DNA of 64,000 nucleotides from NCBI RefSeq assembly GCF_023516715.1, contig NZ_JAMGSI010000002.1, positions 682,001 to 746,000 on the forward strand, read 5' to 3'. How positions within the stretch are numbered: the stretch's first letter is position 1; each line of letters starts with the position of its first letter. Under the pieces are notes generated by a model. The model was not told the origin of the DNA. It ran no database searches and worked only from the letters and a program-made list of their open reading frames with translations. The position numbers and the translations under genes were made by a program. Below are positions 9,441-62,030 of this stretch, one piece after another. The stretch is from Akkermansia massiliensis. GTDB lineage: Bacteria; Verrucomicrobiota; Verrucomicrobiia; Verrucomicrobiales; Akkermansiaceae.

Positions 9441-10472
9441 CTACACTCCGGCTCCGGTCCCGCGCCTGCCGCGTGACCTGATTTTATAGGCCAGCGTATC
9501 CGCCAGCTCCCGGAGGGCGTTGAGCGGGTTTTTCCGCAGGACGTGGCGCCCTTTCAGCGTGGCGCCGGGCCGGACGGTTCCCGTTCCCCGGTGGTTGTGG
9601 ATGACGGCGGCTGTCTGGGCGAACATGTTGTACTTTTCCAGCACCAGGCGTCTAGCCTCGCGAATGGCGGGAAGCCGCTTTTCGTATTCCCCGCCGTCCA
9701 TGGCCTTGCGGATAATTTCAAAGGCTTTTTGCGGATCGTCCAGGGGGATGGGGATGAAGCTTTCCTGCGGGAAGCATTCCGTCGCCAGCGGGTCCCCGGC
9801 GTAAAAGGGAAGGGTCATGGCGACGAAGGCGTCGGACAGTTTTTCCGTCCAGTGATGGGGTTCCAGATGGTTTTCCACGCACAGATGGTACTTGTAGCCG
9901 TCCATGGCGACGGTTTTGTTTTCTATTTCCTGAATGCCATGCCCGAACCAGTCCAGCTCCGGCAGGCGGTCCGCCAGGTAGCGCGTGAGGTCATAACGCA
10001 TTTTATGCATGGTATGCGTGTGCTGCTTGGCGGAACAGATGGTGGAAAGCATCTTGGTTTTCGGAAATTCCGTCTGGTCCAGAATCTCCTGCATGGGCTT
10101 GATGTACAGCCATTCCAGGCATCCGCGGCCCAGGGTATGGTTGGGGTGCGGGAGGTCCCGGACGGAGTGGGTAGTCAGCACGGTGCCGAACTGGCCGGTG
10201 TATGCCCGGCTGTAGATTTTAATGGAAGGGGGTTCCACCGTGATCAGGATGGTCTGGTCCGGGGGACAGAGCAGGGGTTCCGTTTCATCCTTGATGGTGC
10301 CTATGGAGTTCCTGGGGAATTCATCGTATACTAGTACCCAGTCATAGTCCGTCATGGCGGCGTCCGTGCAGAACAGGCAGTCGCCCCACAGCAGGGATTC
10401 CGTTTTATCCGGGGAGGCCTTGGTGGATTTTCTGATGACCTTGATGCGTATGGGGCGGGAGGAATCCGTCAT
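9441..10472 (-). CDS. Glycosyltransferase family 10 (fucosyltransferase-like)
   Basis: The 343-residue protein has the C-terminal GT10 block: YKYHLCVENH (about 191-200), then WTEKLSDAFVAMTLPFYAGDP. This matches the alpha-1,3/1,4-fucosyltransferase pattern of an FEN-type motif followed by TEKL and PVVxG. GT10 enzymes move fucose from GDP-fucose onto GlcNAc or glucose in surface glycans. Here the FEN motif reads VEN. The C-terminus is basic and may contact the membrane. It has its own promoter (10565-10592) and a leader of about 85 bases, so it is not simply co-transcribed with the acyltransferase. The sugar donor is inferred from the family. Confidence 0.75.
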   Translation of the reverse strand: MTDSSRPIRIKVIRKSTKASPDKTESLLWGDCLFCTDAAMTDYDWVLVYDEFPRNSIGTIKDETEPLLCPPDQTILITVEPPSIKIYSRAYTGQFGTVLTTHSVRDLPHPNHTLGRGCLEWLYIKPMQEILDQTEFPKTKMLSTICSAKQHTHTMHKMRYDLTRYLADRLPELDWFGHGIQEIENKTVAMDGYKYHLCVENHLEPHHWTEKLSDAFVAMTLPFYAGDPLATECFPQESFIPIPLDDPQKAFEIIRKAMDGGEYEKRLPAIREARRLVLEKYNMFAQTAAVIHNHRGTGTVRPGATLKGRHVLRKNPLNALRELADTLAYKIRSRGRRGTGAGV

Positions 10473-10564
10473 GGGAATGGAGGCGTTGAAGCGGCGCGCG
10501 GGCTTTCCGCCGTACGTCGGGCAACCCGTCCGGAAGCATCGCGGCGGCGGCGCTGCATGACGTC

Positions 10565-10592
10565 AGTGTAGGGGGCCTTCCTTCCTTGTCAA
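10565..10592 (-). promoter_or_regulatory. Sigma-70-type promoter of the GT10 gene at 9441
   Basis: On the minus strand TTGACA (10592-10587) and TACACT (10570-10565) are separated by 16 bases. The flank upstream of the -35 box is nearly identical to that of the other GT10 promoter at 13825-13852 (CTTTGnCATTGACAAG), which supports both as real elements. Confidence 0.6.
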
Positions 10593-10630
10593 TGTCAAAG
10601 GATTGGGCGTTTTTCCGTGCGGAGCTTCCG

Positions 10631-12706
10631 TCAGTTGGACACCGTGCTTTCCATCCCCGGAAAAAGCTGGTCGAGGATGCCGGAAACCATTTTCCTGGAA
10701 CCGTAGGGGGAAAGGTGGTTGTCGTCACAGTACATCAGGTGCCCCTCGTCTTCTTCCAGCCACCGCCCGTTTTTATGGAAGGCGCCGTGCAGCGGGATAA
10801 AGCGGCACAGGCCCGTGGATTCCATGTGCTCCAGCAGGGCGAATACGGGGCGTTGCCGCGTGATGAAGTCTCCGCCCAGCAGGCGGTCCGCGCGGTTGGC
10901 GTTCAGCAGCGCATTGCGCCGCATGAGTTTGCGCGGGCCGAAGGTCCATTCAGGCACGGGACCCAGCAGCACGATTTGCTTGCCGGCCTTGCGAAGGCGT
11001 GCGCAGGTGTGGAGCAGGCCGTCCGCAACCAGTTGTTTCAGGCGCATGTCCCGGTGGCTGTTGACCAGTTCAATCCAGCGGTTGTGGATGAATACGGTGT
11101 GTATCTGGGGAGTGTTTTCCAGCCAGTCCAGAATCAGGTCCATGTTGTGCTCCCAGTGCGGGTACATCATGCGCAGCAGCGTGAGGGAATCCGCGTCTCC
11201 GGACTCGGAAATGCCGCTCAGGGGGCATAGCCGCGCCCGGTAGAACAGGCCTGACCGGTTGAGGAGCCGGGCGGCGTCGTCAAAGCCCGGAGAGCTGGCC
11301 ATGGCATGGCTGTCTCCCATAAGCAGGAAGGAAGGGGGCTGCCCGGTTTTACCCAGCAGTACAAAGGGGTAGTCCGTCACGTCTCCCAGCTCCGGATGAT
11401 GGGGCTGGATGGCGTTTCCCTTTTCCACCACCGCACGGTCAGGGGGCGTGATGCCGAAGGAGGGCGGGAAGGCCGGCCCCTTCCAGTATTCCGGGAATGA
11501 TATGTTGTTGGCGGCCACGTGCCAGTAGTCCCGTGCGCCGTCCGTCCATTTGAGCCATTCTCCGGCAAAATCCAGCGTGAGGCACCCTGCCGCCGTGAGC
11601 AGGAACGCTTTTGCGGGCTTCCGCCATGCGGCGGCTGTCCTGAAGGGGGTTTCCACGAATTTCCAGGAAAGGAAACCGAGAAGAAGGGAGAGAAGGAACA
11701 TGCCCGCATAGTCCCGCGGACCGCATTCATTGAAGCAGAAGTAGGTCCAGTACACGATGACGGGCCAGTGCCACAGGTACAGGGAGTAGGAGATTTTGCC
11801 GATGCCCGTGCTGAGCGGATGCCTGAGGATGCGCCCGGACCAGCCGTGGCTTCCGTAGCGGATCAGAAGGGCCGCCCCCGCGACGGAAGGAATGGCCGTA
11901 TAACCCGGAAAGGGCGTGGAGGAGGAATAACAGGCAAAGGGGAGCAGAATGCCGGCCCACCCCGCCAGCCGCAGCCAGCGTATTCCCCGGCCCTGTTCCG
12001 CAGCGACGGGAGCCAGGGCCAGGAGACAGCCTGCCAGGAGTTCCCAGGCGCGGCAGTGAAGCAGGTAAAAGGCCTTGTTATGCTCCAGATTCCCCATGTG
12101 GTAGACGGCGGCGAACAGGGAGAGCGCCAGGGCTCCGCAGAGAACGGGCTTGACGGCGTTTTTCCTGAATTTCCAGAGCAGCCACAGGGCGAGCGGAATC
12201 GTCAGGTAGAATTGCTCCTCCACGCTCAGGGACCACAGGTTCAGCAGCGGGTTTTCTTCTGCGGCCGGGCTGAAATAGTTTCCTGCGGTCCTGCTGAAAT
12301 AAATGTTGGTGATGAAGAGGGCGCTTGACCTCACGGTGCGCCCCAGGGTCCGCAGGTCGTCGCAGGCCAGCACCACGCACCCGAAGGCCAGCACGACCGC
12401 AATCAGGCAGAAATAGGCGGGCATGATGCGCCTGATTCTCCGGTAGTAAAAGGAGGACAGGGAGAAGTTCCCTTCCTTCAGGCTGCGGACAAGGCCGCTG
12501 CCGATCAGGTAGCCGGAGATGACGAAGAAGATGTCCACGCCCGTGTACCCTCCCGGGCAGATCCATTCCTGCAAATGGTACAGGACGACGGCCAGCACGG
12601 CAAAGGTGCGCAGGCCGTCGATGTGCGGAAAGTAGGTTCCGTGGGCGGCATTTCCGGCCTGATGGAGGGAAGGTGAACAAAAGTTTTCAGAAAGGCATTT
12701 GTTCAT
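10631..12706 (-). CDS. OafA-like acyltransferase 3 with C-terminal SGNH domain
   Basis: The 691-residue membrane protein starts, in my choice, at ATG 12706; an upstream in-frame extension overlaps the next gene and looks non-coding. The acyltransferase 3 domain opens with HIDGLRTFAVLAVVLYH and GVDIFFVISGYLI, and spans about ten membrane helices to about residue 390. The C-terminal SGNH hydrolase-like domain has GDSHA (block I) and DDNHLS (block V with the catalytic Asp/His). Such proteins acetylate surface polysaccharides (O-antigen, capsule) from the periplasmic side. It lies among glycosyltransferases, so surface-glycan O-acetylation is the likely role. Confidence 0.85.
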   Translation of the reverse strand: MNKCLSENFCSPSLHQAGNAAHGTYFPHIDGLRTFAVLAVVLYHLQEWICPGGYTGVDIFFVISGYLIGSGLVRSLKEGNFSLSSFYYRRIRRIMPAYFCLIAVVLAFGCVVLACDDLRTLGRTVRSSALFITNIYFSRTAGNYFSPAAEENPLLNLWSLSVEEQFYLTIPLALWLLWKFRKNAVKPVLCGALALSLFAAVYHMGNLEHNKAFYLLHCRAWELLAGCLLALAPVAAEQGRGIRWLRLAGWAGILLPFACYSSSTPFPGYTAIPSVAGAALLIRYGSHGWSGRILRHPLSTGIGKISYSLYLWHWPVIVYWTYFCFNECGPRDYAGMFLLSLLLGFLSWKFVETPFRTAAAWRKPAKAFLLTAAGCLTLDFAGEWLKWTDGARDYWHVAANNISFPEYWKGPAFPPSFGITPPDRAVVEKGNAIQPHHPELGDVTDYPFVLLGKTGQPPSFLLMGDSHAMASSPGFDDAARLLNRSGLFYRARLCPLSGISESGDADSLTLLRMMYPHWEHNMDLILDWLENTPQIHTVFIHNRWIELVNSHRDMRLKQLVADGLLHTCARLRKAGKQIVLLGPVPEWTFGPRKLMRRNALLNANRADRLLGGDFITRQRPVFALLEHMESTGLCRFIPLHGAFHKNGRWLEEDEGHLMYCDDNHLSPYGSRKMVSGILDQLFPGMESTVSN

Positions 12707-16479: not shown

Positions 16480-17634
16480 TTACAGGGAAGGCGGCGATGT
16501 GTCAAACGGCTCTTCCGGCGAGGCGTTTTTCCCTTGGAAACCGTTGGAATGCGCTTGGGAAAAATGTTCCGCGAGCATTCTTTTGCAGGAGTAATAGCGT
16601 CCCTTCTGTCCGGGAAGCAGGGAACAGGCCGCCAGCAGGATGCGGCCCCAGCCGTTGGATGGCGGCTGCGCCGAGTTCAGCAGGTCCACCAATTGCCTGT
16701 CCCGGCCCGGCAGGACGGAGAGGAACCGAGCCCCTTCCGCGTTCCGGTAGAACAGGTGCCACCAGTCCAGCAGGGACTGTTGCTGAACGGCGGTCATCTG
16801 GTGGAAAAGAGGATGCTTGGAAACGAAGAAAGGCCTGATTTTCCGCACGCCATAGGCGAACAGGCCTTCATTCTGCCATCCGTGTTCCTTCCAGTAGTCC
16901 ACGATGTACAGCAGACGCTGGAATTCCTGCACGCATTTGAAGTAGGTGGGGTCATTGCAGCGGCGGGAAAGGGAACCGCTCCGCATGAGGCGGTAGTAAT
17001 ACAGGCAGTCCGGAATGAACAGGAGGCGGGAGGCGTGGGGGACGGCCATCAGCCGGAAGGTTTCATCCTCCGCGCCGGATTTCAGGTTCACATTGAAGCG
17101 GAGGCGGTGGGCGTCCAGCATGCTTTTCCGGAACAGCTTGCTCCATACGCAGATGTCCATTTTACCCCAGATGGAGTCCCGGAAGAAGCTGGCCGGGGAG
17201 GCGTCCTTTTCAAAATGCCAGGAGGGCGACCTCCTTCTGGCCTCAATGAGCCGGTCCGACGAGTCCTCGAAGACATGGTTGCCGCACTCCACGATGTCCG
17301 CATCATGTTCCAGGGCCGCGGAAAAAAGGCGGGAGTACATTTCCGGGTCCACGTAGTCGTCCGGGTCCGCAAAGCCGACGTAAAGGCCCCGCGCCGCATC
17401 CAGCCCCGCGTTCCTTGCGGCGGAAACGCCCGCGTTCTGCTGGTTCAGGAGGATGATTCTGCCGTCCTTTTCCTTCCAGCGGAGCAGGTGCGCCCAGGTA
17501 TCGTCCATGGAGCCGTCATTGATGCAGATGATTTCAATGTTCCGGAGGGTCTGCCGAACCAGGCTGTCCAGACAGTCGTCCACATAAGCGGCTACATTGT
17601 AGCAGGGAACGATGATGGAAACGTCGGGACGCAT
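16480..17634 (-). CDS. Glycosyltransferase family 2
   Basis: The 384-residue cytoplasmic GT-A enzyme begins VSIIVPCYNVAAYVDDCLDS and has ICINDGSMDDT and the metal-binding FADPDDYVD motif (DPDD, about residue 92). These are hallmarks of GT2 sugar transferases that build O-antigen or capsule. The C-terminal 180 residues form a helical extension common in LPS-type GT2 enzymes. It is the first gene of a minus-strand unit with the putative transferase at 15647, and it reads divergently from hldD. Its promoter contains an unusual dyad (17647-17675). The sugar is unknown. Confidence 0.85.
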   Translation of the reverse strand: MRPDVSIIVPCYNVAAYVDDCLDSLVRQTLRNIEIICINDGSMDDTWAHLLRWKEKDGRIILLNQQNAGVSAARNAGLDAARGLYVGFADPDDYVDPEMYSRLFSAALEHDADIVECGNHVFEDSSDRLIEARRRSPSWHFEKDASPASFFRDSIWGKMDICVWSKLFRKSMLDAHRLRFNVNLKSGAEDETFRLMAVPHASRLLFIPDCLYYYRLMRSGSLSRRCNDPTYFKCVQEFQRLLYIVDYWKEHGWQNEGLFAYGVRKIRPFFVSKHPLFHQMTAVQQQSLLDWWHLFYRNAEGARFLSVLPGRDRQLVDLLNSAQPPSNGWGRILLAACSLLPGQKGRYYSCKRMLAEHFSQAHSNGFQGKNASPEEPFDTSPPSL

Positions 17635-17646
17635 AAGCTTATAATG

Positions 17647-17675
17647 TATGTAACGGATTTACAATCCGTGGTCAA
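17647..17675 (-). promoter_or_regulatory. Promoter with a perfect dyad filling the spacer (GT2 gene)
   Basis: On the minus strand TTGACC (17675-17670) and TACATA (17652-17647) are separated by exactly 17 bases. Those 17 bases (17653-17669) form a perfect inverted repeat, ACGGATT-gta-AATCCGT. This is where a repressor dimer would block polymerase. It lies 13 bases from the GT2 start codon, in the 301-base divergent region shared with hldD (17635-17935). Nothing else is clear in that region. Confidence 0.5.
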
Positions 17676-17935
17676 TGATAATTTTTGCAAGATAAATATT
17701 ACCGAAGGTTTTTAACGTTGTCAGCATGAAAAGAGGGGATGAAGGCCGGGGATTCCGCGGGATGCGCAGGGATTGCGTTCCAACGGTTTTCCGCGTGGAC
17801 CGGCCAGGGGTTGGAGTATCCGGATTGTAAATTCGTTGAGAATTTGGAGTTCGGGAACGCCTCAAATGGCAGTTGCCTAGGGCCGGGTGGATGTGGTACA
17901 AAAGGCCGTACAACTTCTTCATTTATTCTTCTCTT

Positions 17936-18922
17936 ATGATTATTGTCACGGGTGGGGCCGGCTTCATCGGCTCAAACATTGTCGCCGCTCTGGAAAAGGC
18001 CGGTAAAAAGGATCTTGTGGTGGTGGATGAGCTGGGCTCTTCCGACAAGTGGAAAAACATCGCCAAGAGAGAGCTGTGCGCCGTGATTCCTCCGGAGGAC
18101 ATGCTTGACTACATGGAGGCGCATGCGGAGGAGATTGAGGCCGTCATTCACATGGGGGCCATTTCCGCCACCACGGAGACGGACGCTGATCTGATCATCC
18201 GGACGAATTTCACGCTGAGCTGGCGCCTGTGGGAGTTCTGCGCCCTGTACGGCAAGCAGTTTATTTACGCCTCTTCTGCGGCCACGTACGGGGACGGCTC
18301 CATGGGGTTTGACGATGACTCCTCCCTGGAGCACGTCAATGCCCTGCGCCCCCTGAACGCGTATGGCTGGAGCAAGGCCCTGTTTGACCGCAAGGTGGCC
18401 CGGGAGGTGAAGGAAGGGCGGCCGGTTCCTCCCCAGTACGCCGGGCTCAAGTTTTTCAACGTGTACGGCCCCAATGAATACCACAAGGGGGGGCAGAAGA
18501 GCGTGGTGGCCCACATTTTCCCCCAGGTGAAGGTGAATGAAACGGTGAAGCTGTTCAAGTCCTACCATCCCGACTACCGGGACGGCTGGCAGCTCCGGGA
18601 CTTCGTGTGGGTGGGTGACTGCGTGAACGTGGTGCTCTGGCTGCTGGACCATCCGGAGGTGAGCGGATTGTTCAATGTGGGGTCCGGGGAGGCGCGCTCC
18701 TTCTACGATCTGGCGAAGGCGGCGTTCAATGCGCTGGGGCTCCAGGAAAAGATCGCCTACCGGGAGATGCCTGAAGAACTCAAGGGCAAGTACCAGTATT
18801 ATACGCAGGCGGACCTTTCCAGGCTGCGCGCCGCCGGCTATGCAGCTCCCATGACTTCCCTGGAGGACGGCGTGCGCCAGTACGTGCAGAAGTATCTGGA
18901 CAGGGAGGACAGCTACGTTTAA
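17936..18922 (+). CDS. hldD: ADP-L-glycero-D-manno-heptose 6-epimerase
   Basis: A 328-residue short-chain dehydrogenase/reductase. The NAD(P)-binding motif TGGAGFIGSNIV is at the N-terminus, and the catalytic Ser/Tyr/Lys set is in SSAATYGDG and YGWSKALFD. FFNVYGPNEYHKG, HPDYRDGWQLRDFVWVGD and FNVGSGEARSFYDL are typical of HldD (RfaD), which converts ADP-D,D-heptose to ADP-L,D-heptose for the LPS inner core. The ATG at 17936 puts the Rossmann motif at residue 6; the upstream in-frame extension from 17873 is not needed. It is followed by a heptosyltransferase-like gene 21 bases later. Confidence 0.9.
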   Translation: MIIVTGGAGFIGSNIVAALEKAGKKDLVVVDELGSSDKWKNIAKRELCAVIPPEDMLDYMEAHAEEIEAVIHMGAISATTETDADLIIRTNFTLSWRLWEFCALYGKQFIYASSAATYGDGSMGFDDDSSLEHVNALRPLNAYGWSKALFDRKVAREVKEGRPVPPQYAGLKFFNVYGPNEYHKGGQKSVVAHIFPQVKVNETVKLFKSYHPDYRDGWQLRDFVWVGDCVNVVLWLLDHPEVSGLFNVGSGEARSFYDLAKAAFNALGLQEKIAYREMPEELKGKYQYYTQADLSRLRAAGYAAPMTSLEDGVRQYVQKYLDREDSYV

Positions 18923-38551: not shown

Positions 38552-41500
38552 GTGCGCCCGCTGGGGCCTTCTGAAACGGCCAAATGCTTTGTCACCATGG
38601 GCGCCGATGATTTGGCGACGCTGACGGTGGATCAAAAGGAGATCATGAACCTCGGTCCGCGCGGGCCGGAAGGAGGCGGTACCTATGATCCGAAGGAAAC
38701 CTCATTTGACATCGAGGGAGGGAAGCATGAGGCTCATTTGGAATATCAAAACATTACCCTCAAAGACCATAAGAAGAATGTTGCCAAGCTTACCTTTGAT
38801 ATGAACGTGGTCGTCACTGACCATCAGACTGGTTCTTCCTCTTCCTATGTCCCTCCGGATACGCAAACGGAACCGGTGGACAATGACGACGAAGGCGAAG
38901 ACGATCCATGCGGTTCCAGCAGCGGAGGGAGCAGCAGTTCTCCCAACAGCAGCTCCAGCAATCCATGTCCGGACGGCAACAATGGGGGAGATGAAGACGG
39001 TGATGAGCCGGTGGGCAATCCTTCCTCTTCAGACGGATGCATGGATAACACGGGAGGAGCGGAACCCCCTCCCACAGCTCGCAACAGGTTTTCTTCCGCC
39101 TCCCTGTACGGCAGCATTTCTTCCGCCGGTAAGCGCGTAACCACTCAGACCAGGAAAACCAGCATGGTGTGGCGCACCAATTTCGGAGCTTTCCGGGGGA
39201 TGGAAGGAATGCCTTATGGCATGCTGGAAATTGTAGCTTACAACTTTTCTTCCAAATTATGGACGCCCGCCGCTCTTCAATACCTGCACCCGATGGCAAG
39301 CAGTATCCAGCCGCCTCCCGGAGGCAGCTTGAGAGCGGACACGGCTTTTCAGATCAGGAATGGGGGTACCAATGTCAATTATTACTGCTATGCTGGCGCG
39401 GCCAGTGGCGGGTCCAAGAAACGGGGTGGCTCCGTTTCCATGACTTACGCCCAAGAGAGCAGCCGTACTGCCAATGCAGCTTCTCTTTTTTCTACGGAAA
39501 TGCGCGTGAGCAATAACAGGGGAAATTCCGTTCTGTACGGAGGGGCTTCACTCTCTTCCCTAAAGAACGCTACCGGGTATGTTTCCAAGCTTGGTTCTTC
39601 CTATACGGCGCAGGATTTTTCCCAATATCTGGACATCGTGCGGGGGAGTGACGGAAACATCCGCCAGATATGGAACCTGTGGGATGGCCTTGCCAGTATA
39701 GAAAATGTGACGGCTGACGGCTATGTGATTGCCTTTTATCTGCCGGAGCAGGCGGGGGAAAAAGCGAATGGCGTTTATCCCGTCACGGGTATTCCGTTTA
39801 AGACTTTCTCCATTTCCGGAGATACGGCAACCAGCAAACTCACGGTCACGGAACAGGCTGAAGGCCGTTCCCCCTATGTCACCCGTTATTGGCAGGGAAC
39901 GGGAGGCGCCTGGTGCATGTCCCAGGGTGAAGAAGAAGACGCCATTTACACCCTGCGGGAAAAACAGACTGTCACTTCCACCACATGGAAATTGATCACT
40001 ACCGTTCAGCGCGGAGAAACAGGAACACCCATTTCTCGCGTGTGTGAAACTTATGAACAGACCTCCAAGGGGAACCTTTGCACCAGCCGAATTGAAGCCT
40101 ACGGCACTGATTATGCCCGGGAAACCACTTACGATTATAACAGCATAGGAAAACTGTCACGGGAAACTGCTCCCGACGGGAGTGTCAAGACGTGGGCCTA
40201 CGACGCTTTTGGTCGTGAAACAGTTCGCATGGAACCCTGGTCCGGAGGGGAAAGAAAAGGCACCTACACCTATTACCGGTACTCGGACCGTCCGGATCCG
40301 GATATCATCCACCAATATGTCGTTCTTACCATCAAAGCTGTACGGTTAAGGGACACGCACTACACCTATGAGGAAGCCAATGATGTGCGCCGTGTGACCA
40401 AGCGGACGGCTGCCCTGGGTGCGGAAGGAGAGCAAGTGGAAATAACGGAAACATGGATGCCCTCAGCTTCCAATGTCCATGCAAGGGGCCGGTTGAAGAT
40501 GCGGCAGGCCGTCAATGGGGTACAGACCTCTTACGAGTATGAAGCAGACAGTCAATACGGCGCCCTGTACAGGATTACGGCGGAAACCCGGGTTGGGGGA
40601 GAAGCTGTGCCGGGGCAGAGCAAGCGCAAATTGACTTACGTGTCCGCACAGGGCACCAACACCCGGATAGAAAAATACGCTTTTCTGATGGATGGAACCT
40701 GGGCATTGACAGATACGGCGGACTACGAATATGACAAGGAGAGGCGATGGATCAAGCGCACGCGCGGCAACGGACGCGTGACGGAACGTGAAATGATGTG
40801 TTGCGGCCCCTTGTGGGAAAAGGATGAAGACGGAGTGATGACTACGTATGCCTATAACACGGCCCGCCAGCTTGTGGAAACCATTCGTTCGGCTACGGAA
40901 ACTACTCCGGAAACCATTGTCAGCTACACGCGGGACGCTTTTGGCAGAACCCTGGCGATACGGCGGGACGTTGGTCCCATGGCCGCCAGTGAAGGGCGGG
41001 AATACAACCTGCTGGGGCAGCTTGTTCGTGAAACGGACGTGCTTGGGAGAGACCATACTTATGCCTATAGTGAGAATGGATTGACGAAAACCGCTACCAC
41101 GCCGGCAGGAGCTACGCTTGTCACCCGCCGCCATGCGGATGGAACCATTTTGGAACAAAGCGGAACGGGACAGAGGCATTTGCTTTATCAAACGGAATGC
41201 ATGGAAGAAGGGATTCTCCATTCCACCCTTATACCGCAGGAAGGCGGGGAACCGGTCCTCATGGAACAATCTGTAACGGATGGCTGGGGCAACGTGGTCC
41301 GTCTTTCCCGGGCCAGTGCCAGCGGCGGCCTCATCCATGAACGGTACAGTTTTGATACAAAGAACAGGCTGTTGCGGAAAGGGACGGACGGCATGGCCCC
41401 GATGCTTTACGACTATGACTCCTTCGGCAACGTAGTGAAAGAGACATGGAAGTTGGCGGAAGAACCTGCCCCGGCTAACTCCCGTATAACAGAATACTCC

Positions 41501-44257
41501 TATGCCTGTGAACGGAGGGAAGACGGCATATACCGTGTGAAGACCGTAATTAACTACAATAGTTACGGGCTGCCTTACTCGAAAAGCACGTCTACGCTGG
41601 TCTCTTTCCTGTCCCCAGTCGTTGCTGAAAAGATCATCTCTTCGGATACGAGAGGCAATGAGATTCCGGAATGGATGGAATATACGGCTCCCGGCAAACG
41701 TACAATCAGGAAACAGGTTCCTGATTCCATAGTCATTGCAGAAGCACTTGTCATTGACGGGTATGAAGTCTCCAAAAAGGATTTCGCAAACATGACTACG
41801 ACCGCGGCGCGTTCCTACACGGCCACGGGGAAAAAGGAAATCCTGACGGACACACGCGGCAATGAAACCACGATCATGTTTGATCTTGCCGGACGCGAAA
41901 CCGGGAGAACAGACGCTGCCGGCAATACGGTTACGACTGCCTATGATCCGGCGACGGCATTGCCCTCCTGCATCACGGACGCACTGGGGAAAACGGCTTG
42001 CTATGCTTACGATTTGCGCGGACGCAAGACTGCTGAATATGGTACGGCAGCGCAGCCCTCTGTTTTTGCTTACGACGATGCAGACAGGCTGATAGAACTC
42101 AAAACTTTCCGGGCTCCGGAAGAAACCATTGCAGGTGATCCGCGTGAACGGACGGATGGCGATACCACCGTGTGGAGCTATGATGAAGTCTCCGGCCTCA
42201 TGACGGCAAAAACCTATGCTGACGGGCATGGGGAAACCTATTCCTATGACGGGTGGAACAGGCTGGTGACCAAATCACAAGCCCGGACGGTTGATGAGCA
42301 GGGAACTCATCTTATGACGACTTACGGCTATGATGAGTTGACGGGGAATTTGCTCTCTGTCACCCACAATGATGCCACGCCGGCCATAGGTTACACGTAT
42401 AACCATCTCAATCTCCTTACGCAGGTAACGGATGATTCCGGTACGCGCACGTTTTCCTATAACCAATACAATGAAGCGGTACAGGAAAATACGGCAGGTT
42501 TGGTGGCCAGTCGGCTTGACTATCAAAGGGACAGTCTGGGTCGATTTCCTGGCTATAGTTTGCAATACAAAGGTGATGTTGTTTTTCAAACCATTTGGAA
42601 TTATGATATGTACAAACGCCTTGGCACTGTTTCCCTCAGGCATGCAGGCGACCGGTTTACCTACGGCTATCATGCAGTTCATGGACTGTTGGAAACGCTC
42701 ACCTATCCCAACGCCCTCAAGAGATGGTATACCCGGGAGGAAAAGCGTGACTTGCTGACTAAAATAGCCTACCAGCGTCCCGGGAGCGCCGACTATTTAG
42801 CTAAAGTCGACTATACTTATGATGCACTGGGGCGCCCCCTGGAAAAGAAGGATTACTTTAATACTCCCAATCCCGATCTTACTCATGTTTACACGTATAA
42901 TGACCGGGACGAACTGGTTGCCGACGTGATGAACCGGGGCGGAACGTACAGCTACTCCTATGACAATATCGGTAACCGGTTGACCTCACAGGAAGGAGCG
43001 GAAGCGGCTCCCACCGTTTATTTGTCAAATAATCTCAACCAGTACATTTCCGGTGATCGGGAACCCTCACAGGAAGAAACGGGAGAAATTACAATCGTCT
43101 ATGAGACGAATAGCCTCAACCAGTACACTTCCATTACGGATGGAGAAGAAAGGCCTTTGATACGGGAGTACGACGAAGACGGCAACCAGATTAAGGTAAA
43201 AACCTCTACAGGCGAGTGGGAGGTAAAGTATAACGCCCTGAACCAGGCGGTCAGATTCACGCAGGATACCAAGCGGGTGGAATGCCGTTACGACTACCTG
43301 AACAGGAGAGTGGAAAAAACAGTCTATGAAGGAGAAATGCTGGTGTCCCGGAAACGGTTTATTTACTGTGGTTTTCTCCAACTTGCGGAACTGGATGCAG
43401 CCAATGCAACGGAAACGGTGCAACCCGTTCTTCGGAAAACCTATCTATGGGATCCTATGGAGTCCACGGCAACACGAATCCTGGCAATGACCACATTCGA
43501 CGAAACGGGAACCTATGTAGAAAACCTTTTTTATACGCATGACCTGCTGAAAAATACTACAGGCCTATTCGATACCCAGGGAGAATGCCGCGCCCTGTAT
43601 GAATATGGTCCATACGGCAATGTTCTCAGGATGGAAGGCAATATGGCGAAGGATAATCCCTTCCGTTTCTCCAGTGAATATGCGGATGATGAATTAGGTC
43701 TGGTATATTATAATTACAGATATTATAATATTTTAAACGGTAGATGGTTGAATAGGGAGCCCATTGGAGAGGATGGTAATTTCAATTTATATAGAATGGT
43801 TTATAATAATCTTTTCACGTTTATCGATTATACTGGGAGTATCCCAGTGAAAACACCGGATGCTGCGATGACCAACTCTCCTTCTTATCTCGCGGATATA
43901 GCAAGAGCGACTCGAGGCATTACATCATCATCTAATATATCTCGAAGAGCTGCAAGAGTTGCGGCTGCGGCTGCGGCTGTTGTCATCGCTACCCGGAAAG
44001 GCTGTAAACCCTGTAAGCCCCCGGCTGGATCGAAACGGCATGACATTGCCAAACCAGGATCCAGAGAAAGAGGAGCTCACAAGTGTGATACTGTAGGTCA
44101 CGTTAAAGTATGGACGATGAATCAGGCTCCATTTCCATCATGCATATGCAATTGGAATGGTCCTGTTACTTTGGAAAACACACAAACTCCACCAGAAGGA
44201 AGTGCCCCGGATGGCCCTCCCCCTCCTAATCCCGCTGGTGGCGGAGGCCCTTTATAA
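38552..44257 (+). CDS. RHS-repeat polymorphic toxin with variable C-terminal tip; 5' end frameshifted
   Basis: At 1,901 residues this is the largest gene. Order of parts: an N-terminal region; a Ser/Asp/Cys-rich low-complexity linker (about 95-170); a long set of YD/RHS repeats (about 520-1650); and the RHS core with YYNYRYYNILNGRWLNREPIGE and NLYRMVYNNLFTFIDYTG, ending near residue 1762. A 139-residue tip follows, with five Cys (GCKPCK, HKCDTVGHVK, SCICNWNG) and a Pro/Gly tail. RHS proteins form a shell that carries a C-terminal toxin, often against neighbouring cells. The coordinates start at GTG 38552, the first start codon in this frame. Protein-like sequence extends upstream to 38438, and an ATG at 38421 lies in a different frame. 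Confidence 0.85.
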   Translation: MRPLGPSETAKCFVTMGADDLATLTVDQKEIMNLGPRGPEGGGTYDPKETSFDIEGGKHEAHLEYQNITLKDHKKNVAKLTFDMNVVVTDHQTGSSSSYVPPDTQTEPVDNDDEGEDDPCGSSSGGSSSSPNSSSSNPCPDGNNGGDEDGDEPVGNPSSSDGCMDNTGGAEPPPTARNRFSSASLYGSISSAGKRVTTQTRKTSMVWRTNFGAFRGMEGMPYGMLEIVAYNFSSKLWTPAALQYLHPMASSIQPPPGGSLRADTAFQIRNGGTNVNYYCYAGAASGGSKKRGGSVSMTYAQESSRTANAASLFSTEMRVSNNRGNSVLYGGASLSSLKNATGYVSKLGSSYTAQDFSQYLDIVRGSDGNIRQIWNLWDGLASIENVTADGYVIAFYLPEQAGEKANGVYPVTGIPFKTFSISGDTATSKLTVTEQAEGRSPYVTRYWQGTGGAWCMSQGEEEDAIYTLREKQTVTSTTWKLITTVQRGETGTPISRVCETYEQTSKGNLCTSRIEAYGTDYARETTYDYNSIGKLSRETAPDGSVKTWAYDAFGRETVRMEPWSGGERKGTYTYYRYSDRPDPDIIHQYVVLTIKAVRLRDTHYTYEEANDVRRVTKRTAALGAEGEQVEITETWMPSASNVHARGRLKMRQAVNGVQTSYEYEADSQYGALYRITAETRVGGEAVPGQSKRKLTYVSAQGTNTRIEKYAFLMDGTWALTDTADYEYDKERRWIKRTRGNGRVTEREMMCCGPLWEKDEDGVMTTYAYNTARQLVETIRSATETTPETIVSYTRDAFGRTLAIRRDVGPMAASEGREYNLLGQLVRETDVLGRDHTYAYSENGLTKTATTPAGATLVTRRHADGTILEQSGTGQRHLLYQTECMEEGILHSTLIPQEGGEPVLMEQSVTDGWGNVVRLSRASASGGLIHERYSFDTKNRLLRKGTDGMAPMLYDYDSFGNVVKETWKLAEEPAPANSRITEYSYACERREDGIYRVKTVINYNSYGLPYSKSTSTLVSFLSPVVAEKIISSDTRGNEIPEWMEYTAPGKRTIRKQVPDSIVIAEALVIDGYEVSKKDFANMTTTAARSYTATGKKEILTDTRGNETTIMFDLAGRETGRTDAAGNTVTTAYDPATALPSCITDALGKTACYAYDLRGRKTAEYGTAAQPSVFAYDDADRLIELKTFRAPEETIAGDPRERTDGDTTVWSYDEVSGLMTAKTYADGHGETYSYDGWNRLVTKSQARTVDEQGTHLMTTYGYDELTGNLLSVTHNDATPAIGYTYNHLNLLTQVTDDSGTRTFSYNQYNEAVQENTAGLVASRLDYQRDSLGRFPGYSLQYKGDVVFQTIWNYDMYKRLGTVSLRHAGDRFTYGYHAVHGLLETLTYPNALKRWYTREEKRDLLTKIAYQRPGSADYLAKVDYTYDALGRPLEKKDYFNTPNPDLTHVYTYNDRDELVADVMNRGGTYSYSYDNIGNRLTSQEGAEAAPTVYLSNNLNQYISGDREPSQEETGEITIVYETNSLNQYTSITDGEERPLIREYDEDGNQIKVKTSTGEWEVKYNALNQAVRFTQDTKRVECRYDYLNRRVEKTVYEGEMLVSRKRFIYCGFLQLAELDAANATETVQPVLRKTYLWDPMESTATRILAMTTFDETGTYVENLFYTHDLLKNTTGLFDTQGECRALYEYGPYGNVLRMEGNMAKDNPFRFSSEYADDELGLVYYNYRYYNILNGRWLNREPIGEDGNFNLYRMVYNNLFTFIDYTGSIPVKTPDAAMTNSPSYLADIARATRGITSSSNISRRAARVAAAAAAVVIATRKGCKPCKPPAGSKRHDIAKPGSRERGAHKCDTVGHVKVWTMNQAPFPSCICNWNGPVTLENTQTPPEGSAPDGPPPPNPAGGGGPL
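43832..43848. repeat. Inverted repeat at the RHS core/tip junction
   Basis: ACTGGGA (43832-43838) and TCCCAGT (43842-43848) form a perfect 7-bp inverted repeat with a 3-base centre. It falls at the codons for DYTG-SIPV, the boundary between the conserved RHS core and the variable tip. Confidence 0.45.
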
Positions 44258-57223: not shown

Positions 57224-58327
57224 ATGGATTGTAGCCGGATTTCCTGTTCCCCTGTCCCTGTTCACGCGATGATGGAGCTTCTGCGTGAGCTGGGGCCGTT
57301 CCATTACATGATGAACCAGGGGAATGTGGGGGATGCCCTGATTGCCGCTTCCACGGTCGCCCTGTTTGAAAGGGAAGAGCTGAATTTCAGTTCATGCGGC
57401 CCGGAACTCCCTGCAGGAAAGGAGGAAATAACGCTGGTTTACGGCGGCGGGGGAGGTTTTGTCCCCTATTTTGGCATGCTGCCTCATTATGTACGCCTTT
57501 TTTCGGATCCGCGCCTCCGGAAGTGCGTGATCCTGCCCCAGAGCTTCAGGGATTGTGATGAACTGGTGGATGTGCTGGATGAACGTTTTACCGTGTTTTG
57601 CCGGGAACGGGCTAGTTATGACTACTGCCTGTCAAGGAATGGGAAGGCGCGATTCCTGCTGGCGGATGACATGGCCGTGGCCGCGGAGCCCGAGATGCTG
57701 AAGAAGCGGCCCGTCAGGCTGCCTTTTCTGGAGATGGAGGAACGGGCGTGGGGCAAGCGCATGAAAAGGGATGTCAAGACTTCCTTGGTAGCGTTGCCCG
57801 GCGCCGGAAAGCTTGCCGTTTGCCTGCGAGATGATCCGGAAAGTACCGGCCACGCTCAAGCGTTGAAGGAACTCCCTTTGAATACGGACCTTTCCGTGTA
57901 TTCCGTACGCGTGATTGATGAGGTGGAACACGCTTTTGCCTATACCCGCTGGCTTTTGAAGGCGCTGGACCAGCCTGACGCCATCTTGACGGACAGGCTC
58001 CATCTGGGCATTTCCGGAGCTCTTCTGGGCAAGGAGGTTTTTCTGATGGACAATGTTTACGGCAAAATTTCCGGAATTTATGAGTTGTCCCTGCGGGAGC
58101 GTTTTCCCCGCGTACATCTGTTGAATGAGTTGAGTGAATTTCCCTGGCTGGAGAAGGTTTTGACTGTACCGGACCTCGACCGCTGCCGGGAAAGGAAGGC
58201 GAAGCATGCGCGGCAGATAGGGAAAGCCGCCGCTTTGTCCAAGTACCTTTATTACCGCAAGGAGGAGAACGGAGTGCTCCGTGTCAAGGTCTGCGGCTTG
58301 CGGATTTGCAAGAAGCGGGTGGTTTGA
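57224..58327 (+). CDS. Polysaccharide pyruvyl transferase-family protein
   Basis: The 367-residue protein has FHYMMNQGNVGDALIAAS at the N-terminus, LVYGGGGGFVPYFG in the middle and DAILTDRLHLGISGALLGKEVFLMDNVYGKISGIYE in the C-terminal half. These are the glycine loop and RLH motif of the CsaB/WcaK-type family, which transfers pyruvate from phosphoenolpyruvate to surface sugars. Its last 30 residues end in VLRVKVCGLRICKKR, a tail shared with the PP-loop protein at 58371. ATG 57269 is a possible alternative start. Confidence 0.78.
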   Translation: MDCSRISCSPVPVHAMMELLRELGPFHYMMNQGNVGDALIAASTVALFEREELNFSSCGPELPAGKEEITLVYGGGGGFVPYFGMLPHYVRLFSDPRLRKCVILPQSFRDCDELVDVLDERFTVFCRERASYDYCLSRNGKARFLLADDMAVAAEPEMLKKRPVRLPFLEMEERAWGKRMKRDVKTSLVALPGAGKLAVCLRDDPESTGHAQALKELPLNTDLSVYSVRVIDEVEHAFAYTRWLLKALDQPDAILTDRLHLGISGALLGKEVFLMDNVYGKISGIYELSLRERFPRVHLLNELSEFPWLEKVLTVPDLDRCRERKAKHARQIGKAAALSKYLYYRKEENGVLRVKVCGLRICKKRVV

Positions 58328-58370
58328 GGATATTTATGGCCGCCGCGCGCTTGCATGGCGACAGGCTTTA

Positions 58371-59684
58371 TCATTCGCGGCTTTGATGCAGGGGACCCTC
58401 TTTTTTACGTTTATAGATCCGAAGGCCAAGAATCTTGATGCGGACGCTGGCCGCATCTTCTTTTTTATAGTACAGGAAGTGTTTGATTCTCTTTCCCATC
58501 CGTTGAGGGAAAGTCAATGGCTTGGGCGCCGGGTACACACCCAGGGACAGCCTTTCCTTTAATGCCTGAGCCCACGGTTCCTGAGAAGTTCCCCATTTTT
58601 CGGCATCTTCCAGAATGGTCTGGTATTCGTAAAAGATGTGTTCATTCCATATCTCCTTGTCGCGAATTTCATCCAAAGATATATCGCGTAAATAAAAAGC
58701 TCCGGAGGCCTTGAAATTCAGGATGGTCCGGAAGCATTTTTCGCATACTCCGCAATTGTCCTGATCCGGATTGGAGTGCCAGCATACTCTCAGGTTGCGC
58801 AGTCCTCTTTCCCATTGGCTGACCAATTTTGCCTTCTGGCTCCGGGTGAATCCCCAGCCTTCTTCATACACACGGAATCGCCGGGAAGAAAGGAGGGGGG
58901 CCGTCACAAAGTTGGAGCCAAAATCCACTACGCCGGATGAATAGGGATAGGTGCTCCCCACCAGTACATTGCCATAATCCCTTTGCCAAAAGGATGCCAT
59001 GCCTGTCAAAGCCGCCAGATGAACCAGTTGCCAGTGAAATCCCCAGTTAAGCTGGTTGTTCCAGAATGTATCCAGAGGGAAAATTTCAGGATAATTGCTT
59101 CCGCAGCGCAGAAGGCGCGTGATGCCCAGTTCCTCAATCGTAGAGAGAGCTTTTTCATAACAGCGCAGGAACAGGGGTTCTTCGTAAAGTCCCCGGTCTC
59201 CGCCCTGTACCAGCAGGCAGGCTTTCACATCCAGGGAATCATACCGCGGTTTCCGATGTGGGGATGCATGCCTGTACAAGGCGAAGGTCGCATCCAGCCC
59301 CTGGGAAAAGAGGGCAACCGCAGAATCGTCCACCGGCGCGTTTCTGTCGTCTATAATCCGGTCCGGCTTGATATCTACCACGTTAAGATACTCAGGATGC
59401 ATTTGCGACCAGGCTTCCATGAAATGCTCCAAATTCCGAAGCAGAGTAAGACTGACGGCCCCTTTCACTTCAAAACGGCCTCCGACATGCATCATTTCAA
59501 AAATGAGCATCCTGATCCATGCGTCTGCAAAATTGTTTTCCACTGTGGGGGCCTGGTCGAAGGGTGCGAGGTCTACCCATACCCGGCAGTTATAACCGGG
59601 AGAAATAAAATCGCAATACAGGCGGGAAGTCCCATTGGGTTGAATATCGACCTGTTGTTGTGGAATGAGCTGGGAAGTAGCCAT
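58371..59684 (-). CDS. PP-loop/QueC-like ATPase paralogue 1
   Basis: The 437-residue protein has an N-terminal domain (about 1-125), then VALFSQGLDATFALYRH, a PP-loop in which the first Gly of SGGxDS is Gln, and a Cys motif NCGVCEKCFRTI. The CGxCxKC pattern is the zinc site of QueC-like enzymes. The C-terminus VRIKILGLRIYKRK resembles the tail of the pyruvyl transferase it faces across 43 bases. Best inference: an ATP-dependent amide- or nucleotide-forming enzyme acting on surface glycans or small molecules. The reaction is not known. Confidence 0.6.
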   Translation of the reverse strand: MATSQLIPQQQVDIQPNGTSRLYCDFISPGYNCRVWVDLAPFDQAPTVENNFADAWIRMLIFEMMHVGGRFEVKGAVSLTLLRNLEHFMEAWSQMHPEYLNVVDIKPDRIIDDRNAPVDDSAVALFSQGLDATFALYRHASPHRKPRYDSLDVKACLLVQGGDRGLYEEPLFLRCYEKALSTIEELGITRLLRCGSNYPEIFPLDTFWNNQLNWGFHWQLVHLAALTGMASFWQRDYGNVLVGSTYPYSSGVVDFGSNFVTAPLLSSRRFRVYEEGWGFTRSQKAKLVSQWERGLRNLRVCWHSNPDQDNCGVCEKCFRTILNFKASGAFYLRDISLDEIRDKEIWNEHIFYEYQTILEDAEKWGTSQEPWAQALKERLSLGVYPAPKPLTFPQRMGKRIKHFLYYKKEDAASVRIKILGLRIYKRKKEGPLHQSRE

Positions 59685-59763
59685 GGGAAACCGGAATCGG
59701 AAGGAGGTTGGGTTACTGGGAACTTCGGGACAACAGGGAAGGCTGCTTTCTGATGCAGTGGAA

Positions 59764-60858
59764 CTATACCTGCCGTTTTTCAGATGGGGAAAGGACTGTG
59801 GAATGCTTCAAGAGATAAAGCATTTCCTGCTGGAAGTGGCCTGAATGAACAATCGTTTTTGCGAGGAAGCGCAGCGGCTTGTCTTGAAAAGCCCTCAAGT
59901 TGAAAACCTTGGAAAATTCCTGCAAATGACCAAGCAGATAAAGCTGGGAAATCGTACGGCGGCATTTCAAGCATGTGCCGCAGTTGAAAGCGCGTTCCAG
60001 GCAAACATTGAGGAAGTCGCAGGCAGGAGGATAATTGGCAAGGATGGCTGTTTTTTCATACCTTGCCAAATCCAGGCCATGCAGGTGGAAACGTACCTGT
60101 TCCGTTTCCGCCGCGGATAGAATGTGGGATTGAAGATGGAATTCACAGTAATCCCTCCGGTCCCTGGTGGTGAAATCCGGATGATTGATATGATAGGTGG
60201 CGGAAGTCCAGTATGAATTCATTAATCCATTCAGGACAAGCACACTGCCGGAATCCAAAAAGGGAAACCAGTTCAAATATCCCTCGTTGCCATAAAAATC
60301 GTACAGGGATGAATCCATCCAGACGAATTCCATACCGTTTTTTTCAGCAAAATTCCGGCTGAGCTTTCGTCTGCCTTCAAGCAGTTCCCGGTTTCCCCAA
60401 TGGGAGCCGCAGTTATTGTGGAACAGGTGGGTGACAGGCGTCCCCGCCTTTTCCAGCTCCGCGATAGTGCACAGGGAATCCACCCCCAGGGACCCGCCCG
60501 TACCAATGCGGCAGCCGGGAATGGGGGAAAGAACTTCCGCGTGAACTTCTCCCGCCAGTTCAACGGGTTTCAGGAAAGGCCCTATTCCTGTCAGGATATG
60601 GGAGAGGAGCCGTATGCCGAAGTGGTACAGGTGCGCGGAGATGGCGGGAAGAACGCGAACCTGACCGCCCTGCTGGGAAATCCATGGAAGCAGGGCCACA
60701 AGGGCTCCATCCGCCCTGCCGGGATTCAAAAAGTCACGGAAACGGGAGTCTACCGTAAACGAAAGCGTGCGCGGCGCGTGGCCGTCCTGAAGAATGGGAT
60801 AGGAGATGGTAACCGCATTTCCCTCTGTCTGTACGGATGGATGGTTAATCGTGATCAT
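59764..60858 (-). CDS. PP-loop/QueC-like ATPase paralogue 2 (divergent)
   Basis: The 364-residue protein has GTGGSLGVDSLCT as its PP-loop (S-L-G-V-D-S) and NCGTCLKCRRTISQL as the zinc motif. Its N-terminal domain is shorter and little conserved with the other two. Between the motifs, NCGSHWGNRELLE and LNGLMNSYWTSATYHI differ from both. It overlaps paralogue 3 by 4 bases, so they are translated together. A distinct substrate is likely. Confidence 0.58.
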   Translation of the reverse strand: MITINHPSVQTEGNAVTISYPILQDGHAPRTLSFTVDSRFRDFLNPGRADGALVALLPWISQQGGQVRVLPAISAHLYHFGIRLLSHILTGIGPFLKPVELAGEVHAEVLSPIPGCRIGTGGSLGVDSLCTIAELEKAGTPVTHLFHNNCGSHWGNRELLEGRRKLSRNFAEKNGMEFVWMDSSLYDFYGNEGYLNWFPFLDSGSVLVLNGLMNSYWTSATYHINHPDFTTRDRRDYCEFHLQSHILSAAETEQVRFHLHGLDLARYEKTAILANYPPACDFLNVCLERAFNCGTCLKCRRTISQLYLLGHLQEFSKVFNLRAFQDKPLRFLAKTIVHSGHFQQEMLYLLKHSTVLSPSEKRQV

Positions 60859-62030
60859 GAGTGTTGGAAGAGTTGGCGGATTTTATGTCTCATGCCGGTT
60901 GGCGGAAGATCCCTTTCCGCCAGCCGCCGTTCCAAGGTGACCGCCCAGGGCTCCTGCCCCAGTCCGTTGGCCTTGGCATGCTTGAGTATTTCCTGGGCAT
61001 AGAGGACGCGGAAAGGGCGGTTAAACTGAATTTGGGAGATATCTTCATTCATGGCGTTGCGCGGCATGCACGTTATTTTGTCCCTGGGCACTCCCATGGC
61101 CATGAAGTTCATGATGGTCAGGCGGCATTTGGTGCATACGCCGCAGTTGCCGGACGCGTCTTTACCTTCCCAGCAACATCTCAGCAGGGCCATGGCCTTA
61201 TCCCACTGCGCGATGAGTCCGGCTTTTTCCGTACGATCATGCCCCATGCCGTCCGTGACGGCTTCCTTGCTGTGGGAGCCTAGATAGTGGTCCGTGATGG
61301 GATTGGAGGCCCAGGGGTAGGAGAAGGAGTCATAGGACCCTTCGCTGCCCGCCATGAAGTAACCGAAGCGGGAGGTGAAAACGCGCATTCCTCCCATCAG
61401 CATGGTATGGTAGGTCATTTCGTAATCCATCCCCATGTTCCGGAAATTGGTCCGGATGCGGTAGAATTGGCAGATGCCGATGTCTTCCAGCAATTCTCTG
61501 GCCTTGGAGAAAGCCTTGTCAAAGTGTTCCTGGTTGTTTTCCGCAATGTCCGCTCCCTGGAACATCACGCAGGCCGTCAGATTAAGGGTCTGGGGGCCTG
61601 CCAAGCCTTTCCGGTGGCGGTAGGCGGTGAAGCAGGCGTCCAGACCGCCGGAAAAGCAGGAAATGGCTTCGTCCCGTTGGGGAACAGCGGAGTCGTCTCG
61701 CTCGGCGGCATGGATGGTGACGCGGTGAAAGACGTTGGGCATCCAGCGGTTCCAGGCTTCCGCGTAGCGGTCCAGATTGACCAGCAGGGAACGGGACAGG
61801 CGCCCCGGCCCTGTAACGGAGAATTCGCCGCCCGTTTCCATCATTTTATGGATGAAGAAGATGCACCAGGCGTCCGCCAAGTCGTCTTTGTCAATGTCCA
61901 CGTTTCCGGTGGATTCAATATCCATGTATTGATGGAATTCCCGGCCTGCAGCTGTGGAGAGGACCGCTTTCAGCGTTGTTTTGTGTGGAGAGTGGACCTC
62001 GGGGGGAAAAATGCGGAGTTCGTTGCTCAT
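60855..62030 (-). CDS. PP-loop/QueC-like ATPase paralogue 3
   Basis: The 391-residue protein has AISCFSGGLDACFTAYRH, the most complete PP-loop of the three (SGGLDA), and NCGVCTKCRLTIMNF as the zinc motif. Its N-terminal domain resembles paralogue 1 (DLADAWCIFFIHKMMETGGEF against NFADAWIRMLIFEMMHVGGRF). This is probably the active form. QueC makes the nitrile of preQ0 with ATP, but no other queuosine genes are near, so the product is likely different. First gene of the three-gene unit. Confidence 0.62.
   Translation of the reverse strand: MSNELRIFPPEVHSPHKTTLKAVLSTAAGREFHQYMDIESTGNVDIDKDDLADAWCIFFIHKMMETGGEFSVTGPGRLSRSLLVNLDRYAEAWNRWMPNVFHRVTIHAAERDDSAVPQRDEAISCFSGGLDACFTAYRHRKGLAGPQTLNLTACVMFQGADIAENNQEHFDKAFSKARELLEDIGICQFYRIRTNFRNMGMDYEMTYHTMLMGGMRVFTSRFGYFMAGSEGSYDSFSYPWASNPITDHYLGSHSKEAVTDGMGHDRTEKAGLIAQWDKAMALLRCCWEGKDASGNCGVCTKCRLTIMNFMAMGVPRDKITCMPRNAMNEDISQIQFNRPFRVLYAQEILKHAKANGLGQEPWAVTLERRLAERDLPPTGMRHKIRQLFQHS

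Follow-up and report, generated by a model that had tools for sequence, protein, structure and literature searches.

A 2026 survey of PF06508 sorts the family into clusters that include QueC, QatC, LarE, WbpG-type proteins, GMPS and Cap9, with 98.5% of the sequences in the ten largest clusters (PMC13329287). QueC takes a carboxylate to an amide and on to a nitrile, with ammonia (PMC13329287). QatC, of the qatABCD anti-phage system, has N- and C-terminal extensions that are essential, and its reaction is unsolved (PMC12424860). Cap9, of the type IV cyclic-oligonucleotide-based anti-phage signalling system (CBASS), has no N-terminal extension (PMC12424860) and retains the canonical QueC active site (PMC13329287), and the WbpG-type N-sugar amidotransferases (cluster 5 of PF06508) are PP-loop enzymes of polysaccharide loci with a cysteine motif of the form CxxC(x)6CxC (PMC13329287). 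The PF04230 pyruvyl transferases include CsaB, WcfO and Pvg1p, and the available text of the paper that treats them mentions no PP-loop partner (PMC6801904). Here we describe three adjacent genes, P1, P2 and P3, and their neighbour P4, in a 64,000-nucleotide stretch of Akkermansia massiliensis DNA (the window, G000:C2:682001-746000, from a 3.28 Mb genome; genomes, contigs and loci are numbered with G, C and L).

P1, P2 and P3 belong to a single widespread family, for which no curated library we scanned has a name. Its membership, its predicted fold, the retention of a four-cysteine (Cys4) site and of the Gly and Asp of its nucleotide loop, and its linkage and fusion to pyruvyl transferases are the established side of this work, and the pairing of family gene and pyruvyl transferase is a new variant on the QueC/QatC theme. 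We call it new because 'pyruvyl' (like 'polysaccharide') occurs 0 times in the main text of the PF06508 survey, where WbpG and O-antigen do occur (PMC13329287), because P1-P3 lie below the Pfam cut-offs, and because no paper joining a PP-loop family with a pyruvyl transferase was found in the open-licence literature. Our reading, to which we give a probability of roughly three in four, is that the family tailors surface glycans jointly with partner enzymes that leave a carboxylate. The genes and sites on which the comparison turns are as follows.

57224..58327, plus strand: P4, 367 aa, polysaccharide pyruvyl transferase family PF04230
58371..59684, minus strand: P1, 437 aa, P1-P3 family, of a lineage related to P3, loop SQGLDA
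59764..60858, minus strand: P2, 364 aa, P1-P3 family, divergent clade, loop SLGVDS
60855..62030, minus strand: P3, 391 aa, predicted N-terminal domain, QueC-like PP-loop domain and Cys4 site, loop SGGLDA
59289..59306, minus strand: P1 nucleotide loop SQGLDA, residues 127-132
60475..60492, minus strand: P2 nucleotide loop SLGVDS, residues 123-128
61635..61652, minus strand: P3 nucleotide loop SGGLDA, residues 127-132
58734..58784, minus strand: P1 Cys4 site, C301-C311-C314-C317
59962..60003, minus strand: P2 Cys4 site, C286-C293-C296-C299, invariant columns
61125..61175, minus strand: P3 Cys4 site, putatively zinc-type, C286-C296-C299-C302, NCGxCxKC, each Cys in 58/58 rows
58404..58505, minus strand: P1 C-terminal tail, P4-like, residues 394-427
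58211..58318, plus strand: P4 C-terminal tail, YYRKEENGVLRVKVCGLRICKK, residues 330-365

Three intact minus-strand open reading frames (ORFs) fill 58371-62030 exactly, each with the PP-loop and CGxCxKCxxT motif that an earlier note on this DNA had reported; P3 and P2 overlap by 4 bp, and 79 bp lie between P2 and P1. The loops read as that note gave them, with the first Gly missing from P1 and P2, to which we add that the loops of P1 and P3 end in Ala instead of the Ser of SGGxDS. The cysteine motifs read NCGVCEKCFRT, NCGTCLKCRRT and NCGVCTKCRLT (in the order P1, P2, P3), all of the form NCGxCxKCxxT. P4, the pyruvyl transferase noted beside them, is convergent with P1 (plus strand, pointing towards it) and belongs to PF04230 by Pfam (E 1.9e-11, 44.8 bits, cut-off 25.3); its residues 257-260 read DRLH, which, from work on Pvg1p, we take to have a role in phosphoenolpyruvate binding.

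Whereas the earlier note saw an N-terminal domain shared by two of the proteins, it is common to all three: P1 and P3 are 31% identical over 353 aa, P2 matches a 13-row profile from which it was left out (positions 20-330 of 402, E 1.8e-15 among 1616 ORFs), and the P2 model aligns with QatC from residue 1. Two other family profiles, A3 (58 rows) and A4, contain P1-P3, and the matches of the three proteins to them are not used as evidence. Against Pfam, P1-P3 give nothing above cut-off, only sub-threshold matches to DUF6395 and QueC (P3 reaches 11.4 bits with PF06508 against a cut-off of 22; P1 and P2 have no QueC row), and QueC is matched at E <=0.01 by 5 of the 58 members. Scanning P1-P3 against NCBIfam returned one irrelevant weak match only; its QatC model, NF041925, is matched weakly by 12/58 members (best E 0.0035; model cut-off 280 bits) and by nothing in the window genome at E 0.001. 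P1-P4 are without a PADLOC match at E 1, the PADLOC QatC model is matched by 4/58 members (best E 0.011), and PHROGs gives a weak QueC-like match for P1 and P3. A sequence search of the PDB found nothing for P3 and unrelated weak rows only for P1; profile A3 matched the PDB weakly, with PP-loop matches around the loop (GMP synthase best at E 0.048, QatC 0.4, nitrile synthetase 0.96), and hhalign of A3 with single QatC or QueC sequences covered the loop or Cys region only (probability 17-28%). Assignment to QueC by Pfam, or to QatC by NCBIfam or PADLOC, was rejected on scores that fall short. DUF6395 (PF19932), a recurrent sub-threshold Pfam match of the family and one for which we found no mention in the open-licence literature searched, may be related to it. 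One stretch of a Priestia plasmid (L169) holds a DUF6395-annotated gene (17429-18745) together with a pyruvyl transferase and a gene of the family; the record matches at two places.

Sequence profiles fall short of QatC, so the likeness to it rests on structure. AlphaFold models of P3 and P2 have mean pLDDT (predicted local distance difference test) values of 92.8 and 90.8 and pTM (predicted template modelling) scores of 0.91 and 0.90, and were compared with the PDB by VIA-align, which re-ranked Foldseek's own 1000 best PDB chains. The top match is QatC for both: 9y01_B for P3 (Z 16.6, root-mean-square deviation 4.6, 295 aligned, residues 1-366) and 9y02_B for P2 (Z 15.9, deviation 4.7, 298 aligned, residues 1-351), with a second QatC chain for P2 at Z 15.2 and 305 aligned. 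These matches run near the whole length at 10-12% identity. QueC is matched over the core, in keeping with the QueC-like fold proposed earlier (Z 12.6-13.4, 174-186 aligned; for P3, 3bl5 at Z 13.4 with 174 and 2pg3 at Z 13.2 with 186), as is Cap9 (9nto, Z 12.7-12.8, about 170 aligned; for P3, Z 12.7 and 169), and LarE, MnmA and ThiI follow at Z of about 10. A BFVD search returned phage QueC-like proteins (best E 3.3e-5). On these models the family is predicted to have the two-domain build of QatC, in which an N-terminal domain is joined to a PP-loop domain of the QueC type, along with a Cys4 site. The best match is thus another PP-loop protein than the one first suspected, from anti-phage defence, which tells in part against the earlier proposal, while the gene context is polysaccharide synthesis, as the earlier note had surmised, and not defence; this context, and profiles that give no QatC assignment, set the family apart from QatC. 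Through this likeness a defence protein with an unsolved reaction is connected to a glycan context, and gains relatives that lend themselves to assay and whose substrate can be guessed.

By its motifs, the family appears to combine a PP-loop with a four-cysteine, zinc-type site as in QueC, with its SGGxDS-type loop. All 58 rows of A3 keep G129, D131, R266, C286, N295, C296, G297, C299, K301 and C302 (P3 numbering), and 57 keep K269. The loop reads SGGVDS in 28/58 rows, and in 11 its last Ser is replaced by A, G or C; P1 and P2 diverge from the rest at conserved positions mainly in the loop. C..CGxCxKC is found in every row, the exact spacing C(x)8CxxCxxC in only 9, and the pattern HPxxD in 39. 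The family differs from QueC in its extra N-terminal domain and in the QueC substrate motifs YxQxHxxE, VPxRN and YPDC, each present in 0/58 members (definitions from PMC13329287); the lack of YPDC also separates it from Cap9, and its cysteine motif is unlike the CxxC(x)6CxC of the WbpG-type enzymes. A queuosine role is rejected on the basis of this, of the genome's own true QueC and QueD, which sit on a separate contig (C1), and of the lack of any QueC or QueD homologue at E 1e-5 among 4047 ORFs around the window and its relatives (QueE was not searched), which bears out the earlier remark that no queuosine genes are adjacent.

The link to pyruvyl transferases is seen first within the genus. 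Counting from coordinates at 23 same-genus family loci, PF04230 is fused to the family gene or lies within about 350 bp of it at 13 (G000, G003, G013, G014, G015, G028, G036 C72, G050, G053 C20, G053 C45, G056, G058, G066), against 0.12 expected, and within 5 kb at five more (G001, G020, G046, G048, G064), against 0.37 expected, these chance figures ignoring shared ancestry and the clustering of glycan genes among related genomes that are not independent, so that tail probabilities derived from them overstate. Broken family copies (G028, G053 C45, G001) are among the tallied loci. Across 69 same-genus genomes, 14 have both a P4-like gene and a family gene, 6 the family only, 7 the P4-like gene only and 42 neither (Fisher p 1.3e-5, uncorrected for kinship). 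By Pfam, single ORFs fuse GT2 (glycosyltransferase), PF04230 and a family unit (1134 and 1128 aa; L061, L062) or PF04230 and a family unit (775 and 731 aa; L072, L021).

The search of other genomes started from 50 of the 80 loci described below and covered 47 of them (all but L108, L115 and L157), in 45 genomes of about 200 Mb with 67 PF04230 matches. Three of the 45, belonging to a clade linked to ATP-grasp genes, are counted apart; in 16 of the remaining 42, PF04230 lies within about 200 bp of the family ORF, against 0.04 expected, with distances measured from longest-ORF starts. Ten neighbours scanned directly are all PF04230 by Pfam, nine of them belonging to the 16, the rest of which were assigned by converted coordinates; P4 and every scanned partner or fused domain are members of that family. 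The pyruvyl transferase comes first in L095, L160, Azospirillum, Gloeothece and Priestia and the family gene in L088, L098, L119 and L149, and in L142 the two are on opposite strands. Since gene order and strand vary in this way between lineages of several phyla, the pairing probably arose on more than one occasion; it is common, not general. A family present in at least ten phyla and so often linked or fused to pyruvyl transferases gives direct access to a glycan modification yet to be described. Two to four family genes, with no pyruvyl transferase found nearby, were seen at the actinobacterial loci L096, L100 (Tomitella) and L109 (Rhodococcus), the first of which adjoins acyltransferase-like genes (by eye), and at L088 the family gene and its pyruvyl transferase have an asparagine-synthase-like PP-loop gene (835-2619, by eye) immediately upstream.

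For wider counts we used the best 80 loci of a scan with the pattern NCG[HKV]CEKC, which gave 244 stretches in a collection of species genomes, 239 of them encoding relatives. Judged by eye, a GT2 neighbour is present at 23/80 loci and a GT4 neighbour at 17/80, and the Psychrobacter family locus is of the Wzx/glycosyltransferase/Wzy type. ATPgrasp_ST is a neighbour at three same-genus loci by Pfam (L057, L058, L064), and a cluster of RimK-like ATP-grasp neighbours is found at 28/80 loci (within L120-L165), nearly all in Desulfobacterota-type records, one locus of which was scanned and is RimK by Pfam; 13 of these loci have a second ATP-grasp-like cluster (by eye), and those retained in our tree fall into a single clade of 12.

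PP-loop enzymes of this superfamily use nucleotide activation and release pyrophosphate, and ATP-grasp ligases attach amino acids. Because the recurrent partners leave a free carboxylate on a sugar, amidation is the simplest common reading of what the family does, and we propose, tentatively and at a little under even odds, that it amidates in an ATP-dependent manner a surface-glycan carboxylate installed by the partner enzyme. In this scheme P1-P3 would bind ATP and use it to adenylate a carboxylate carried by an intermediate of surface-polysaccharide synthesis, either a sugar or a lipid-linked glycan; ammonia or an amine would then displace AMP to leave an amide. Here the carboxylate would come from the pyruvate ketal made by P4, with the family acting after P4; elsewhere it may be an amino-acid or similar group from ATP-grasp ligases. 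The earlier idea of a new ATP-dependent modification is kept in this form, as chemistry that we infer. To our knowledge no enzyme is known to act on a finished pyruvate ketal. The non-sugar groups that capsules and O-antigens carry influence charge, recognition by the immune system and the binding of phages. It is a more speculative thought, and an unlikely one as a whole, that PP-loop ligases across phyla turn surface-glycan carboxylates (those of pyruvate ketals, or of amino acids that ATP-grasp enzymes have added) into amides or nitriles, with the QatC defence reaction borrowed from glycan tailoring or the reverse; that reaction would then be a carboxylate ligation, since the two-domain build is common to QatC and the P1-P3 family.

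Several observations weigh against glycan tailoring with a carboxylate-leaving partner, or against the amidation we derive from it. PF04230 is missing within 5 kb at 5/23 same-genus loci (G004, G027, the G036 C83 fragment, G047, which is near a contig end, and G053 C7) and within 200 bp in 26/42 other genomes; over all 80 loci it is a neighbour at 20 only, five of them close Psychrobacter, and the chance expectations carry the kinship limits given with them. There is no PF04230 match in the three genomes searched of the ATP-grasp-linked clade, and no recurrent glutaminase neighbour was noticed by eye in the clusters of the 80 loci. On the structural side, Foldseek itself gives no PDB match at E 0.001 for P3, the QatC link is not established by sequence profiles alone, and for QatC, to which the models are closest, no reaction has been reconstituted (PMC12424860). 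The altered loops of P1 and P2 count against the proposal as well.

The glycan context would also suit other nitrogen chemistry, in which the family is a WbpG-type amidotransferase (acetamido to acetamidino) or dehydrates an amide to a nitrile, on a nucleotide- or lipid-linked sugar and before the pyruvyl transferase. WbpG, which O-antigen synthesis requires, is assigned to the QueC superfamily, and QueC reaches its nitrile by way of an amide (PMC13329287); moreover, the nitrile synthetase ArtA appears in the structure list of P2 (Z 10.6, core only). This chemistry would leave the link to pyruvyl transferases unexplained, however, no WbpG-type model has a row for members among the 25 of 28 families listed or for P1-P3, and the lack of a recurrent glutaminase partner tells against it too, so that we consider it doubtful, with perhaps the weight of a minority opinion. 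QatC, as the top near-full-length structural match of both models, and a site that differs between close genomes would instead fit defence or protein modification, with the N-terminus of a partner protein modified (as by Cap9 with 7-deazaguanine) and the glycan genes as bystanders in a variable island. A QatB with an N-terminal MGTS adjoins a true QatC (L172) in a relative, but by eye no such QatB was seen among the window ORFs beside P1-P3 or at the mapped relatives, and no QatA, QatB or QatD beside family units (no model search was made for either). Neither the QatC model in the window genome nor PADLOC for P1-P3 gives a match at the thresholds above, the PADLOC QatC model reaches few members and weakly, the nucleobase motifs of QueC are absent, and a Psychrobacter member used as query matched 0/50,697 phage records. 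Set beside a linkage to pyruvyl transferases that recurs and extends to outright fusion, these results make a defence role quite improbable.

A different doubt concerns the individual copies, some of which, P1 and P2 first, might be catalytically dead, with P3 alone active in a hetero-complex of the three. Loss of the first loop Gly is rare, affecting 4/58 rows with P1 and P2 among them, and multi-copy loci recur: at least two family matches occur at 14/80 loci, the second being a 127-aa fragment in L107 and loop-less in L088. P1 and P2 nevertheless retain the Gly and Asp of the loop, the Arg and Lys pair and all four cysteines; P2 has relatives with SCGVDS, SCGIDS and SGGVDS, so the first-Gly position drifts within its clade; and P1 is missing at this site from the two closest relatives. 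We regard dead copies in this trio as unlikely, and joint glycan tailoring by the family and its partners stays our preferred account. Among order-level relatives, L069 (7834-10332), L078, L080 and L081 have two family units head-to-tail in one ORF, with another unit after them in L069, L080 and L081; in L069 this single unit (10290-11666) carries the loop APDVDG and may be a dead copy.

Relatives of P3 and of P2 at E 0.001 are present in 20 and 14 of 114 genomes, respectively, the window's own included, and A3 matches at E 1e-8 in 25, of which 20 are among the 69 same-genus genomes. The spread of P3 relatives, like the 239 pattern stretches that encode relatives, shows that the genes are no product of chance. 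By record labels the family spans at least ten phyla, the best 80 loci being labelled Pseudomonadota, Actinomycetota, Cyanobacteriota, Chloroflexota, Nitrospirota, Thermodesulfobacteriota, Planctomycetota, Campylobacterota, a Woesebacterium and others. The same Psychrobacter query matched 18 of 72,556 plasmid records (Azospirillum, Gloeothece, Priestia, haloarchaea and others), and every best plasmid match is annotated 'hypothetical protein'. A quick tree of 113 rows places P1 and P3 in one 14-row same-genus clade (99), P3 with proteins of G056, G036, G066 and G053 and P1 with proteins of G053 and G004, and P2 in a separate 5-row same-genus clade (99). Simple recent triplication is rejected on account of these three separate same-genus groups, because of which the trio is better described, as far as the tree goes, as an assembly of lineages.

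Nor is there support for the trio as a fixed unit, as the earlier note had worded it. The order TypA, P4, cassette, aldolase marks the same chromosomal place in several genomes, and there the two closest relatives (G056, G036) carry P4, P2 and P3 without P1, G046 and G048 carry P4 with an ATP-grasp gene, an aldo-keto reductase and a different family gene (by Pfam for G048), and G053 carries P4 with a P2 remnant. P4 orthologues with 77% identity or above occur in six genomes, and all six have a family gene or remnant, of differing lineages, in the cassette; its distance from P4 is at most 100 bp in four of them and about 2.5 kb in the other two. Because the same place holds interchangeable cassettes next to a constant P4, the site is a variable island (L064 and L065 compared with window positions 57224-62030). 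Remnant or broken family genes (G053 C45, L073; G036 C83, L085; G028 C11; G001 C28) indicate that these genes are accessory and get lost.

Finally, P1 and P4, on opposite strands, have in common a C-terminal tail with the pattern YYxKE..xxxRxKxxGLRIxK. Aligned with the P4 tail, that of P1 has a local score of 75, reached in 0/5000 shuffles (maximum 45), while the tails of P2 and P3 score 18 and 21 and lack the shared element; P1 also gives weak phmmer matches to P4 orthologues. When ORFs from the mapped loci were scanned for its pattern, the tail turned up in P1, in six P4-type proteins and in two other ORFs, and it is perhaps a docking or membrane tail. Elsewhere in the window, the plus strand holds an ORF of 1901 aa at 38552-44257.

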